From NCBI GenBank assembly GCA_012960035.1, contig DUBZ01000092.1, positions 1-64,000 on the forward strand: a stretch of 64,000 nucleotides of DNA. Direction: 5' to 3'. A program made the translations under genes and the position numbers. Under the pieces are notes generated by a model that ran no database searches, had not been told where the DNA came from, and worked only from the letters and a program-made list of their open reading frames with translations. This document shows positions 24,565-28,769 of this stretch, piece after piece; the stretch's first letter is position 1; the number at the start of each line of letters is the position of its first letter. The DNA comes from Myxococcales bacterium. GTDB lineage: Bacteria > Myxococcota_A > UBA9160 > UBA4427.

Positions 24565-26244
24565 TCAGTCCAAGTATCCAAGCGCTCGAAGTCGGTCTGC
24601 GACTGCGGCTTCTTCTTCGGCAGAGTAGCGGCGCTCAGTGAGTCCATGTGATATCCCGTCTGCCGAACCCTCGGATGTTTCCCAATCGAGCCCCATTGCG
24701 CCAAGGAGCGTGGGCGCCATATCGACGAGCCGCGGGTGAGGTTCATCGAGACTGAGGCCTGCGCCTGTTCCGACCAAGATGCCATCGGCGCGGTGGGTCC
24801 CATTCATGCCAAGCCCGCGACCGCCGGCGAGTTCGTCGTCCTCCAAGCGGGTGACAGAACTTCCCCCGCCCTCTTCCCAGCGGCTTGCGACGAGAGACAG
24901 CCCGTAGCCGTGATGGAGTGCAAGTTCGATCATGATGTCTGGTGCGCGGGAAACAAAGGGACCGTGGTAGAGGTCTTCTCTGCGGATGGCCCGCGCGACG
25001 ACGGGTTCGCCGTCCGGGAGCCGCCATGCGAGCAGCGCCTCAATGACCCGGTCCCGCACGCGCTCGTAGTCTTCGGGCGCGACCGCGCCTTTGGCCTCGC
25101 GTCCGCGGAGGTTTATCCACACGCCTGGGTTGGTATTCGCCTCTTCGGAGAAGGCCAGGGTCTGATTCCAGTCGAAACCCCCGAATCGGGCACCGCTTTC
25201 CAGCCGCGCCGCGGCGGCACGTGCGCGGCGGAAGATGAACTGGGCCAGGCCGGAGGGGAGAATCTTCAAAGCCAGGTCTCGCAGGCCCCGAGCCAGTGCG
25301 TCCACCGACGGTCCGCCTTCCGATATTCTCGTAAGTAATCCCGCTTCGGAGAGGTAGCGATTCAGATGCACGACATGGCGGCTCGCTCCCCCCATGCCGT
25401 GGTCAGACATCACGACGCACAGGGACTCCTCGCCAAAGGCTCGGCGCAACTCGCCGCACGCATGGTCGAGCCGGCTGTAAACATCTTCGATCGTTGCGCG
25501 CGCGGTCGCGTCGGCGGTTGGGTCGTGGCGCGGAGAGTCCGGGTCGTGATGTCGCCAGAAGTGATGGCCCACGGTGTCGCTTTCCGAAAACACGACCATC
25601 ATAAAGTCGAGGTCGGCCTCCTCCCGCATCGCTTCTATGGCGGCAACGGAAAAAGCAAGTTTGCGATCGACGCGGTCGAGCAAGTGGCCGCGGGTGCGGT
25701 CGAGAGATGTGTCCGACCCTTCTTTCATGGCAGGTCGCATCCACGGACCCGCAATCGCTTCAATGCGCTTATAAAGCGAGGGGTCGTTCGTTGCGTCGGC
25801 GTCGCTTCCCGTTGAGACCGGCGCGTCGAAGCCCGGGACCAAGAGGCCGTTGAGTTCTTCGGGAGGAAACGTGGCGGGAACACCGAGCACGAGAACACGT
25901 CCGCCAGCTTCGCTTACGCGCGCAAAGATTGAACGCCCGCTGCGGTCGGCCGCGTTCGCAAACGCGATGCGGTACGCGCCCGAAATCTTCTGCGTAAAAT
26001 CGAACATCCCGTGACGCCCGGGTTCGAGCCCAGTCATAAAGGACGACCAAGCGGGGAACGTCACCGGGGGTGCGGTGGAGCGCAGGGGAGCCGCGATGCC
26101 CTCGTCCATGAAGCGCGCCAGGTTCGGGAGTTTGCCGGCCTCCACCATGGGGCGAATCACGTCGAAGGTCGCGCCGTCGAGCCCGATGACGAGCAGTGGC
26201 GACATTTTTGCGCTTTTGCTCGCGGAAATTTCCGGGCTGGTCAT
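24565..26244 (-). CDS. Alkaline phosphatase superfamily phosphodiesterase/phosphotransferase
   Basis: From the ATG at 26244 the protein has 559 residues, with GAGG about 9 bp upstream. LLVIGLDGATFDVIRPM opens the family core, and the nucleophile loop is APPVTFPAWSSFMTG, where Thr or Ser takes the phosphate. Later metal ligands are seen in VFSESDTVGHHFW (D and H), CVVMSDHGMG (D-H) and NGTHRADG (H). This arrangement is that of type I phosphodiesterase/nucleotide pyrophosphatases. No signal peptide or transmembrane helix is visible, so it is likely cytoplasmic. Lying 7 bp upstream of a GT2 gene, it probably handles a nucleotide-sugar or phosphorylated glycan; the substrate is unknown. Confidence 0.88.
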   Translation of the reverse strand: MTSPEISASKSAKMSPLLVIGLDGATFDVIRPMVEAGKLPNLARFMDEGIAAPLRSTAPPVTFPAWSSFMTGLEPGRHGMFDFTQKISGAYRIAFANAADRSGRSIFARVSEAGGRVLVLGVPATFPPEELNGLLVPGFDAPVSTGSDADATNDPSLYKRIEAIAGPWMRPAMKEGSDTSLDRTRGHLLDRVDRKLAFSVAAIEAMREEADLDFMMVVFSESDTVGHHFWRHHDPDSPRHDPTADATARATIEDVYSRLDHACGELRRAFGEESLCVVMSDHGMGGASRHVVHLNRYLSEAGLLTRISEGGPSVDALARGLRDLALKILPSGLAQFIFRRARAAAARLESGARFGGFDWNQTLAFSEEANTNPGVWINLRGREAKGAVAPEDYERVRDRVIEALLAWRLPDGEPVVARAIRREDLYHGPFVSRAPDIMIELALHHGYGLSLVASRWEEGGGSSVTRLEDDELAGGRGLGMNGTHRADGILVGTGAGLSLDEPHPRLVDMAPTLLGAMGLDWETSEGSADGISHGLTERRYSAEEEAAVADRLRALGYLD

Positions 26245-26465
26245 CGGTCGGGGCCTCAAGCTGCTGCGAGAATCTGCCTCGAAACTCCCGCGAAGCATTG
26301 CGTGTTAGCGCTTCGTTCACCGCGATACCACCCGACACCGGTTGAGGCGGTCGAGTTGTGGGCCCGGGAACCGCTTGGCGCAGGAGGGCGTCGTTGAAGC
26401 TGAAATTCGCGACCTGGCCACTTTGCGAACGTGACCTCAAAGCGACAGTTTGGCAGCGCTCGGTC

Positions 26466-26494
26466 TCGACACGGAGCGAGCGTGCTCCTATAGT
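26466..26494 (+). promoter_or_regulatory. Sigma70-like promoter for rplC
   Basis: TCGACA at 26466-26471 and TATAGT at 26489-26494 are separated by exactly 17 bp. They match five of six and five of six positions of the consensus boxes. Transcription would start near 26500, giving a leader of about 200 nt before the rplC GTG. Confidence 0.5.
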
Positions 26495-26503
26495 CCGCCG
26501 CTT

Positions 26504-26530
26504 CGTGCCTGCGGCTCGCTCGCAGGCACG
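26504..26530 (+). other. Strong hairpin at the 5' end of the rplC leader
   Basis: CGTGCCTGCG (26504-26513) and CGCAGGCACG (26521-26530) form a perfect 10-bp stem around the 7-nt loop GCTCGCT. It would lie within the first ~30 nt of a transcript from the promoter at 26466-26494. No T-run follows, so it is not a classical terminator of the minus-strand gene or of this leader. A 5' stabilising hairpin or a protein-binding leader structure is possible. Confidence 0.5.
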
Positions 26531-26703
26531 AGAAGACAAGAAGCGAACAACATCTCAAATCAATGATCAAATCGGGGAGTGTGCGGCAACGCCGCTCAGT
26601 ACAACGCCTTGAACTCCGCCAAAGTCGGCGGGCCCAAGCATCCCCTATCACCTCGCGACGAACGCCATGACGGCGGTCCAATCCGAGTAGTGGAGTAACA
26701 AGC

Positions 26704-27345
26704 GTGGCAATCGACCTTATCTGCCGAAAAATCGGCATGACTCAGCTCTTCCTAGACAACGGCAAGTGCGTCCCGGTAACCGTCCTCGATGCATCACCCA
26801 ACACAGTGGTGGACATCAAAACCGAAGAGCGTGACAGCTATACCGCCCTTCAACTCGGTGCAGGTGAGCGCAAAGAAAGCCGCTTCGGCAAAGCCGAACT
26901 CGGTCACTTCAAGAAGAAGAATGTCGAGCCCACGCAGATATTGTTGGAATCTCGAATCACCGCCGAAGAAGCCGGCGAGTTTGAAATTGGCCAAAAGATC
27001 GATTGCTCGATCTTTACCGAAGGCCAGAACGTCGATGTTCACGGGACCTCGAAGGGCCGTGGCTATTCCGGCGTCGTGAAGCGTCACGGGTTTAAGGTCA
27101 AGAAGATGACGCACGGTACCCACGAAGCCTTTCGGCACGGTGGTGCGATTGGTGCGGGCTCATCCCCGGGTAAGGTCATCAAGGGCATGAAGATGCCCGG
27201 CCAGCTCGGCAACGCGCGCGTCACCATGACGAACCTGAAAATCGAAAAGATCGACGCCGAAAAGAACCTGATTTTCGTGCGCGGCGGTGTACCCGGTCAC
27301 AACGACGGCATCGTTTGTGTGCGCGACGCGCTCCAGGGAAAGTAG
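26704..27345 (+). CDS. rplC: 50S ribosomal protein L3
   Basis: The protein has 213 residues, the normal bacterial L3 length, starting at GTG. CRKIGMTQLFLDNGKCVPVT opens it; GTSKGRGYSGVVKRHGF is the central 23S rRNA-binding extension; GAIGAGSSPGKVIKGMKMPG and LGNARVTMTNLKI close it. L3 binds 23S rRNA early in 50S assembly, near the peptidyl transferase centre. It normally lies in the S10 operon, but here its neighbours are an AP-superfamily gene (divergent) and rlmE. Its own promoter and hairpin leader lie upstream. It reads in the same frame as rlmE, separated from it by a TAG and 6 bp. Whether another copy exists elsewhere cannot be seen. Confidence 0.96.
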   Translation: MAIDLICRKIGMTQLFLDNGKCVPVTVLDASPNTVVDIKTEERDSYTALQLGAGERKESRFGKAELGHFKKKNVEPTQILLESRITAEEAGEFEIGQKIDCSIFTEGQNVDVHGTSKGRGYSGVVKRHGFKVKKMTHGTHEAFRHGGAIGAGSSPGKVIKGMKMPGQLGNARVTMTNLKIEKIDAEKNLIFVRGGVPGHNDGIVCVRDALQGK

Positions 27346-27351
27346 GACCCC

Positions 27352-28008
27352 GTCGCGAAATACGATCGAAAGGATCAGTTTCACCAGCGTGCCAAGCGTG
27401 AGGGATACCGTTCGCGCGCAGCCTACAAGCTGCTTGAAATCCATCGCTCCCACCAAGTGATCCGCCGAGGCCGCAAGGTCTTGGATCTGGGTTGCTGGCC
27501 GGGCGGTTGGCTTCAGGTTGCTTCCGCCACGGTGGGCCCGAAGGGCAAGGTTGTTGGCGTCGACAAGGCCGCCATCGACCCGCCGCTCGAGATCCCGAAT
27601 TGCGAGTCCGTTGTCGGTGATCTTGAAGATCCAAAACTATGCGAACAGGTTCTCCCTTTACTGGGTGGTCTCGCGGGGCTTATTCTCTGCGATGCAGCGC
27701 CGAAGTTGACGGGTGTTCGGGCAGTGGATCGAGCCAACGAAGAGCGTCTCCTCGAGGCGGTCGAGATGCAAATTCCCCTTCTTTTACAGGAAGGTGGAGA
27801 CTTTTTGGTCAAGATCCTCGACGGCCCCGAAGCGCAAATCGTCGACCGGCGGATCCGCATGAAGTTTCGCGCTGCCAAGACGGTCAAGTCCAAAGCTACC
27901 CGCAAGGGTTCAACTGAGCGGTATCTCTTCGCTAAGGGATATCGTGGGGCTAAAGACACGATCGAAGCGCCACCCGAGCCGGAAGCAGACGCAACCGACG
28001 AGCCGTAG
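27352..28008 (+). CDS. rlmE: 23S rRNA (uridine 2'-O) methyltransferase RlmE/FtsJ, non-canonical start
   Basis: The obvious GTG at 27457 gives a 183-residue protein that lacks the first part of the family. The frame upstream of it continues AKYDRKDQFHQRAKREGYRS and RAAYKLLEI, which is plainly RlmE. With GTC at 27352 as residue 1, the catalytic tetrad is Lys26, Asp114, Lys154 and Glu189, spaced 88, 40 and 35 residues; in E. coli (38, 124, 164, 199) the spacing is 86, 40 and 35. AGGA at 27344-27347 sits 4 bp before GTC. There is no ATG, GTG or TTG in this frame between the rplC stop and 27457. LDLGCWPGGW is the SAM site. It methylates U2552 (E. coli numbering) in the 50S subunit. The start is GTC, a sequencing error for GTG, or rplC read-through. 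Confidence 0.85.
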   Translation, partial: VAKYDRKDQFHQRAKREGYRSRAAYKLLEIHRSHQVIRRGRKVLDLGCWPGGWLQVASATVGPKGKVVGVDKAAIDPPLEIPNCESVVGDLEDPKLCEQVLPLLGGLAGLILCDAAPKLTGVRAVDRANEERLLEAVEMQIPLLLQEGGDFLVKILDGPEAQIVDRRIRMKFRAAKTVKSKATRKGSTERYLFAKGYRGAKDTIEAPPEPEADATDEP

Positions 28009-28049
28009 TTCGACATCTGGGGTGCACGTATTCCCCGACACGCCAGAGC

Positions 28050-28769
28050 ATGGGGAGCCCGATGCGCGAAACCGAAGCGCGGGACGGTGTGAGCGAAAAG
28101 CCGGTCAATCTGGGCTCGGCGACTTCGCCAGACGGAGTGCTCGTTGACCAGGGGGGCCGCGTACTCGGCCCGCGCGCCCTGGGGACCCGGCAAAAACTCC
28201 TCGACGCCACTCGGGACCGGCTCGACTCCCACAGACTGCGGGAGATTCGCGTGATCGACGTGGCGCGTGCCGTCGATGCGTCGCCCGCGGCCTTTTATCA
28301 GTACTTCAAGGACATTGAAGAAGCGGTGCTCGCCCTCGCCGAGGCCGCGTCGAGCGAAATGCCCGTGGTCGCAGAACTGCTTGAGCAACCCTGGTTGGGC
28401 AACGCAGGGCTCGGCTGCGCGCGAAAACTGGTGTCGGCCTTTATCGATCATTGGGACCACCATCATGCGGTCCTGCGTGTTCGCAACCTGGTTTCGGACG
28501 AAGGAGATGCACGCTTCCGCGCGGTTCGCGGCCGTGCGATGAGTCCCGTCTTGCTCGGGTTGGCGCGCCAAATTGAAGCGTCGCAAGCTGCTGGAAGAAT
28601 TTCGCAAGACGAAGACCCCCGCGCGGCTGCTGCTGCGACGGGTGCCATCCTCGAGCGCATGGGGGCCTATCATCGCGATCTCGCCCAGGGGGGTGTCGCG
28701 CAAGAACAGCTGATCGAAACTTCAGCGCGTATTCTCTTTCGCAGCGTCACGGGCGAATCTCTTCTGTGA
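28050..28769 (+). CDS. TetR-family transcriptional regulator
   Basis: The protein has 239 residues. A disordered N-terminal 45 residues precede a helix-turn-helix: RQKLLDATRDRLDSHRLREI, then VIDVARAVDASPAAFYQYFKD, whose F-Y-Q-Y-F ending marks TetR recognition helices. The ligand-binding half is helical with no family-specific motif. An ATG at 28062 with GGGGAG just upstream is an alternative start. It lies 34 bp before the DUF35/thiolase pair on the same strand, so it may control those genes in response to a CoA thioester or lipid. Confidence 0.9.
   Translation: MGSPMRETEARDGVSEKPVNLGSATSPDGVLVDQGGRVLGPRALGTRQKLLDATRDRLDSHRLREIRVIDVARAVDASPAAFYQYFKDIEEAVLALAEAASSEMPVVAELLEQPWLGNAGLGCARKLVSAFIDHWDHHHAVLRVRNLVSDEGDARFRAVRGRAMSPVLLGLARQIEASQAAGRISQDEDPRAAAAATGAILERMGAYHRDLAQGGVAQEQLIETSARILFRSVTGESLL

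Follow-up and report, generated by a model that had tools for sequence, protein, structure and literature searches.

In the DNA analysed here (the window, 64,000 nucleotides from a contig belonging to a genome of 5.5 Mb with an estimated contamination of 6%), a gene of the rlmE/ftsJ family of 23S rRNA 2'-O-methyltransferases stands directly behind rplC and shows no start codon of the usual kind, which raises the question of where its translation begins. The upstream gene, rplC, encodes ribosomal protein L3 and occupies 26704-27345 on the forward strand (213 aa, GTG start; TIGR03625, 254.9 bits against a cut-off of 142.9), and its TAG stop at 27343-27345 is in frame with rlmE. Past this TAG the frame continues as DPVAKYDRKDQFHQRAKREGYRSRAAYKLLE..., and reading it through confirmed the original prediction that ATG, GTG and TTG are absent from it until a GTG at 27457-27459. 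Our answer, to which we assign a probability of about 0.74, is that rlmE (27352-28008, forward strand, 218 codons plus stop) is translated from the near-cognate GTC at 27352-27354, read as fMet, by ribosomes that have ended rplC 6 nt upstream (termination-reinitiation), and that selection keeps this codon weak.

The rlmE frame and its proposed start

The rlmE frame is matched by the FtsJ domain PF01728 with an E-value of 8.5e-40, and the match to TIGR00438 (rrmJ) runs from end to end (E 3e-46), yet reaches 157 bits against a cut-off of 300. The protein encoded at 27346-28005 likewise misses the equivalog cut-off of PRK11188 (111 of 269 bits) in a full-length match, and its solved relatives include the mitochondrial MRM2, which is the best, and FtsJ (1eiz). 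Because the score lies under the RrmJ cut-off and the best solved relative is MRM2, we refer to an RlmE-family protein rather than to a proven RlmE; the gene product can be placed in the RlmE/FtsJ family from these matches, with U2552 as its presumed target. The K-D-K-E catalytic tetrad is intact (K 27427, D 27691, K 27811, E 27916), and recomputation gave the same spacings of 88/40/35 that had been reported for it.

The GTG at 27457, the earliest canonical start in the frame, is rejected as the true start, since it is located downstream of the first catalytic lysine, which initiation there would remove as had been pointed out, and of an N-terminal segment that is under purifying selection. 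For codons 2-36, all upstream of this GTG, dN is about 0-0.18 among near relatives, compared with a dS of about 0.3-2.7, and this segment is therefore taken to be translated. The alignment of relatives points instead to the GTC at 27352 as the start. At this site of the alignment, relatives without a tight rplC-rlmE pair have ATG or GTG, and those with one have GTC, GTT, ATT, ATC, CTG or ACG. The 6 nt between the rplC stop and the GTC fall inside the coupling range, the tight set spanning -4 to +14 nt.

Start codons and distance from the rplC stop

RlmE loci were sampled from this order and class and from a sample of the phylum; the relatives of the window are uncultured Myxococcota or 'Deltaproteobacteria' MAGs, and the genomes compared are mostly MAGs. 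For each locus, we measured how far the rlmE start lies from the rplC stop (d). In three genomes of the same genus, the codon aligned with GTC 27352 is GTT, ATT and GTT, while same-family genomes with rlmE after rplC carry mostly GTC or GTT at this position, and two close sister genomes differ in their start (GTT vs ATT), both being non-canonical. Relatives with GTG or ATG in this segment, which the original prediction had named as evidence to the contrary, were looked for, and a start codon of this kind was encountered only where rlmE is not tightly behind rplC.

Within the class, 35 of the 36 junctions with the rplC stop within about 14 nt are devoid of a canonical rlmE start, the codons being GTC (12), ACG (10), CTG (5), GTT (4), ATT (2), ATC (1) and GCG (1), and the exception a TTG (L174). 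Where rlmE lies farther from rplC or elsewhere, 53 of 58 genes carry ATG, GTG or TTG at or near the same codon. The comparison of 35:1 non-canonical to canonical starts in the tight set (d up to 14 nt) with 5:53 in the loose set, which includes outgroups outside the class, was restricted to rows with 38% identity or more and gives a Fisher p of 3e-19 with kinship ignored. When the loci are sorted by d, 34 junctions between -8 and +9 nt are non-canonical and two are canonical (L198 with TTG and L212 with GTG, both outside the class), whereas above 25 nt the counts are 27 canonical to 2 non-canonical. Genes that do not adjoin rplC have a canonical start in 32 cases with five exceptions, namely L010, which sits at a contig edge, and four distant proteins whose N-terminus is longer and whose start lies upstream. 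Non-canonical codons despite loose spacing were met in five relatives (L006, L013, L031, L065 and L200). Chance does not account for the absence of a canonical start, which is seen in dozens of independent genomes and varies with how far rlmE lies from rplC.

To take kinship into account, a tree of 113 RlmE proteins was used, in which 10 independent, supported pairs differ in distance; the start type shifts in the expected direction in 5.4 of them on average and in the opposite direction in 0.0, with a median p of 0.06, so that the phylogenetic sign test is borderline on its own. Beyond the family of the window, a sister family (f12) of about 43% identity begins rlmE with ACG at comparable junctions. 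In a genus of another family (L215 and L218-L221; genomes G100, G104, G197, G227 and G235), CTG follows directly after TAA or TAG (d=0) in five of five genomes, with no canonical start nearby, and this genus is an independent second case in Myxococcota. Canonical starts at tight junctions occur outside the class (L198 TTG, L212 GTG, L225 ATG, and also L227, L228 and L229), so that the distance dependence is no law of the phylum. For the class itself we tentatively propose, though with less than even confidence, a rule under which the start would be kept near-cognate only within re-initiation range of a ribosomal-protein stop, so that RlmE output would follow L3 synthesis as well as free IF3 and, through IF3, the supply of 30S subunits, with GUC, GUU, ACG and CUG being usable by re-initiating ribosomes in nature.

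Re-initiation, codon choice and competing explanations

Ribosomes finishing rplC probably re-initiate, inefficiently, at GTC 27352, where the initiator tRNA would place fMet, and the weak codon may let a small fraction of the heavy ribosome traffic on rplC make RlmE. RlmE is presumably needed in far smaller amounts than L3, and a low RlmE output per L3 would result; once the genes part or the distance grows, the weak codon would be replaced by ATG, GTG or TTG. Re-initiation as the route and low dosage as the reason are both read from the pattern of codons and distances. In E. coli, 40-80% of the coupling is lost at +14 nt and nearly all of it at +38 nt (PMC10666635), in agreement with the spacing beyond which canonical starts reappear in the present loci. 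Furthermore, excess IF3 lowers re-initiation without a Shine-Dalgarno sequence in E. coli (PMC2268962), and in Streptomyces, where initiation at GTC is established, IF3 represses the GTC start of sigR (PMC5472188). Repression of the rlmE start by IF3, whose own gene has an ATT start, is plausible, and RlmE may in this way respond to free IF3.

That the GTC is a sequencing or assembly error, for GTG as the original prediction had also considered, or that rlmE is decaying, might be suspected from a single MAG contig of a genome with 6% estimated contamination. This explanation has practically no probability left: a canonical start is likewise missing from independent genomes (GTT, GTT and ATT within the genus, and 35 of the 36 short-distance junctions of the class), the catalytic tetrad is whole and the N-terminus is under purifying selection, and the canonical start being absent from relatives too already refutes it. 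A canonical start located farther upstream, within rplC, from which an RlmE with an N-terminal extension would be made, is very improbable. In-frame GTG or ATG codons do lie 16-45 codons upstream at L007, L010, L012, L018, L020 and L022, but their positions vary and are not conserved, and an in-frame stop within 10 codons upstream makes such a start impossible in the window and at 11 other tight loci; for the window it is refuted by the TAG at 27343 with no later start. The layout of the window, where the TAG shares its frame with rlmE and no start intervenes, would in itself also suit a minor L3-RlmE fusion made by reading through the rplC stop codon or by a frameshift there, for which a separate start is unneeded, and in-frame junctions are found at other loci as well, among them the five with CTG at d=0. 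Nevertheless, the rplC stop is in the rlmE frame in only 8 of 34 tight junctions, the in-frame relation is not conserved among relatives, and with the three relative frames represented 14/12/8 times several recoding mechanisms would be required. Moreover, a near-cognate codon is present in nearly all tight rows, with ATG or GTG at that site once the genes part, and some junctions (L026, L068, L075 and L190) have the layouts CTGA, TGATC and TAGTC, which correspond, with near-cognate codons, to the familiar ATGA and TGATG overlaps and thus mimic ordinary start-stop overlaps. The occurrence of all three frames together with these overlaps favours termination-reinitiation and leaves read-through quite unlikely. 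Among the three options of the original prediction, it is thus re-initiation at GTC 27352, coupled to L3 termination, that the comparison supports, while the error is refuted and the read-through unlikely.

A further explanation accepts the coupling and dispenses with selection on the codon: delivered ribosomes would start near the stop regardless, and the codon would drift neutrally. This would be in line with the several different codons seen, among them the GCG of L022, the oddest, which stands there alone and is one change from GTG. Over all rows, the tight starts comprise GTC (12), ACG (10), CTG (6), GTT (4), ATT (2), ATC (1) and GCG (1), to which L218-L221 add four CTG, and at five tight loci the start was set 1-2 codons off the aligned position for a near-cognate codon, a choice that favours the pattern. 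Against drift, a single substitution would turn nearly all of these codons into ATG or GTG. In the tight rows of the class, at least 15 codon changes have occurred and every codon has a canonical neighbour one change away, yet the canonical status was switched once, to the TTG of L174. Among the 1270 valine codons of the same genes, GTG (539) is as frequent as GTC (536), and yet GTG is at none of the tight class starts; in addition, genes of the S10-spc operon that are under similar coupling retain ATG or GTG. Since at least 15 changes gave one canonical codon and GTG is absent though a frequent valine codon, the site seems to be held by selection both recognisable and weak, and we regard neutral drift as unlikely. 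Re-initiation at a codon kept weak thus remains our reading.

Known systems and genomic context

Non-canonical starts in bacteria are known from a handful of genes. Such starts, translational coupling and initiation at GTC, as in sigR, are already known as such. The closest likeness is to Streptomyces sigR, called the first documented GTC start by Feeney et al. (2017, PMC5472188), which annotation misread and whose output is low relative to its coupled partner gene. However, sigR is the upstream gene of its pair and has a very strong Shine-Dalgarno sequence (AGGAGGTG), whereas here it is the downstream gene that has the weak start, together with a weak Shine-Dalgarno sequence, and the weakness of the codon is tied, unlike in sigR, to how close the upstream stop lies; control by IF3 is demonstrated for sigR and no more than plausible for rlmE. 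The autoregulated infC with its AUU start, which appears as ATT here too, is similar in carrying a near-cognate start on a translation-related gene, but has a strong Shine-Dalgarno sequence (AGGAGG), while that of rlmE is weak and its codon varies among near-cognate types between relatives. Termination-reinitiation pairs (Huber et al., 2023, PMC10666635; Yoo and RajBhandary, 2008, PMC2268962) share the short distances and the loss with distance, but use ATG, GTG or TTG as a rule, whereas the downstream start of rlmE is kept non-canonical. In the literature searched, mostly outside subscription journals, we did not find a conserved near-cognate start tied to the distance from a ribosomal-protein stop, nor a paper linking rlmE, rplC and start codons, nor a relevant one on start codons in Myxococcota. 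The junctions may serve as a repeated natural experiment in which codon weakness tracks distance, providing a sequence-based measure of the range of re-initiation and of the codons it tolerates, and would show how an enzyme gene can persist immediately downstream of a ribosomal-protein gene that is translated at a very high rate. Gene callers restricted to ATG, GTG and TTG cannot call rlmE correctly at such junctions.

Several features of the host were considered as sources of the unusual start. Generally lax start codons are ruled out by the S10-spc operon of this genome: the genes checked there start with ATG or GTG only, at similar spacing. A special initiator tRNA reading GUC was likewise dismissed, as the initiator is ordinary (CAU, GGG/CCC stem) and so is tRNA-Val(GAC), in a tRNA set that may be incomplete. 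Compensation by the Shine-Dalgarno sequence was discarded as well, because anti-SD pairing of the tight rlmE genes is weak (median -3.5 kcal/mol), no different from the loose ones (-3.2 kcal/mol), with stronger pairing in S10-spc genes (-6.7 kcal/mol). In this genome infC, the gene for IF3, seems, as in E. coli, to begin with an ATT located 8 nt after AGGAGG, giving MPARSKFRIVAPERDATRVNERIRV (L137, contig C36 of the same genome, minus strand, at about locus position 2030), and therefore IF3 proofreading of weak codons probably operates in the host.

With respect to the RNA, RNAalifold on 15 relatives yielded just a small stem with negligible covariation at the junction, and an Rfam search of 26200-28200 gave no match. 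A perfect 11-bp inverted repeat (TCGTGCCTGCG-GCTCGCT-CGCAGGCACGA) lies at 26503-26531, about 170-200 nt upstream of rplC; six relatives lack it as a perfect hairpin, and it is therefore probably no conserved leader element. The rplC beside rlmE is the sole copy in the genome and stands outside the S10 operon, where rpsJ is followed by rplD 2 nt later with no rplC between them (contig C86 of the own genome, G000; L196, 161-1158). The pairing of rplC with rlmE is present in many, not all, of the sampled Myxococcota families.
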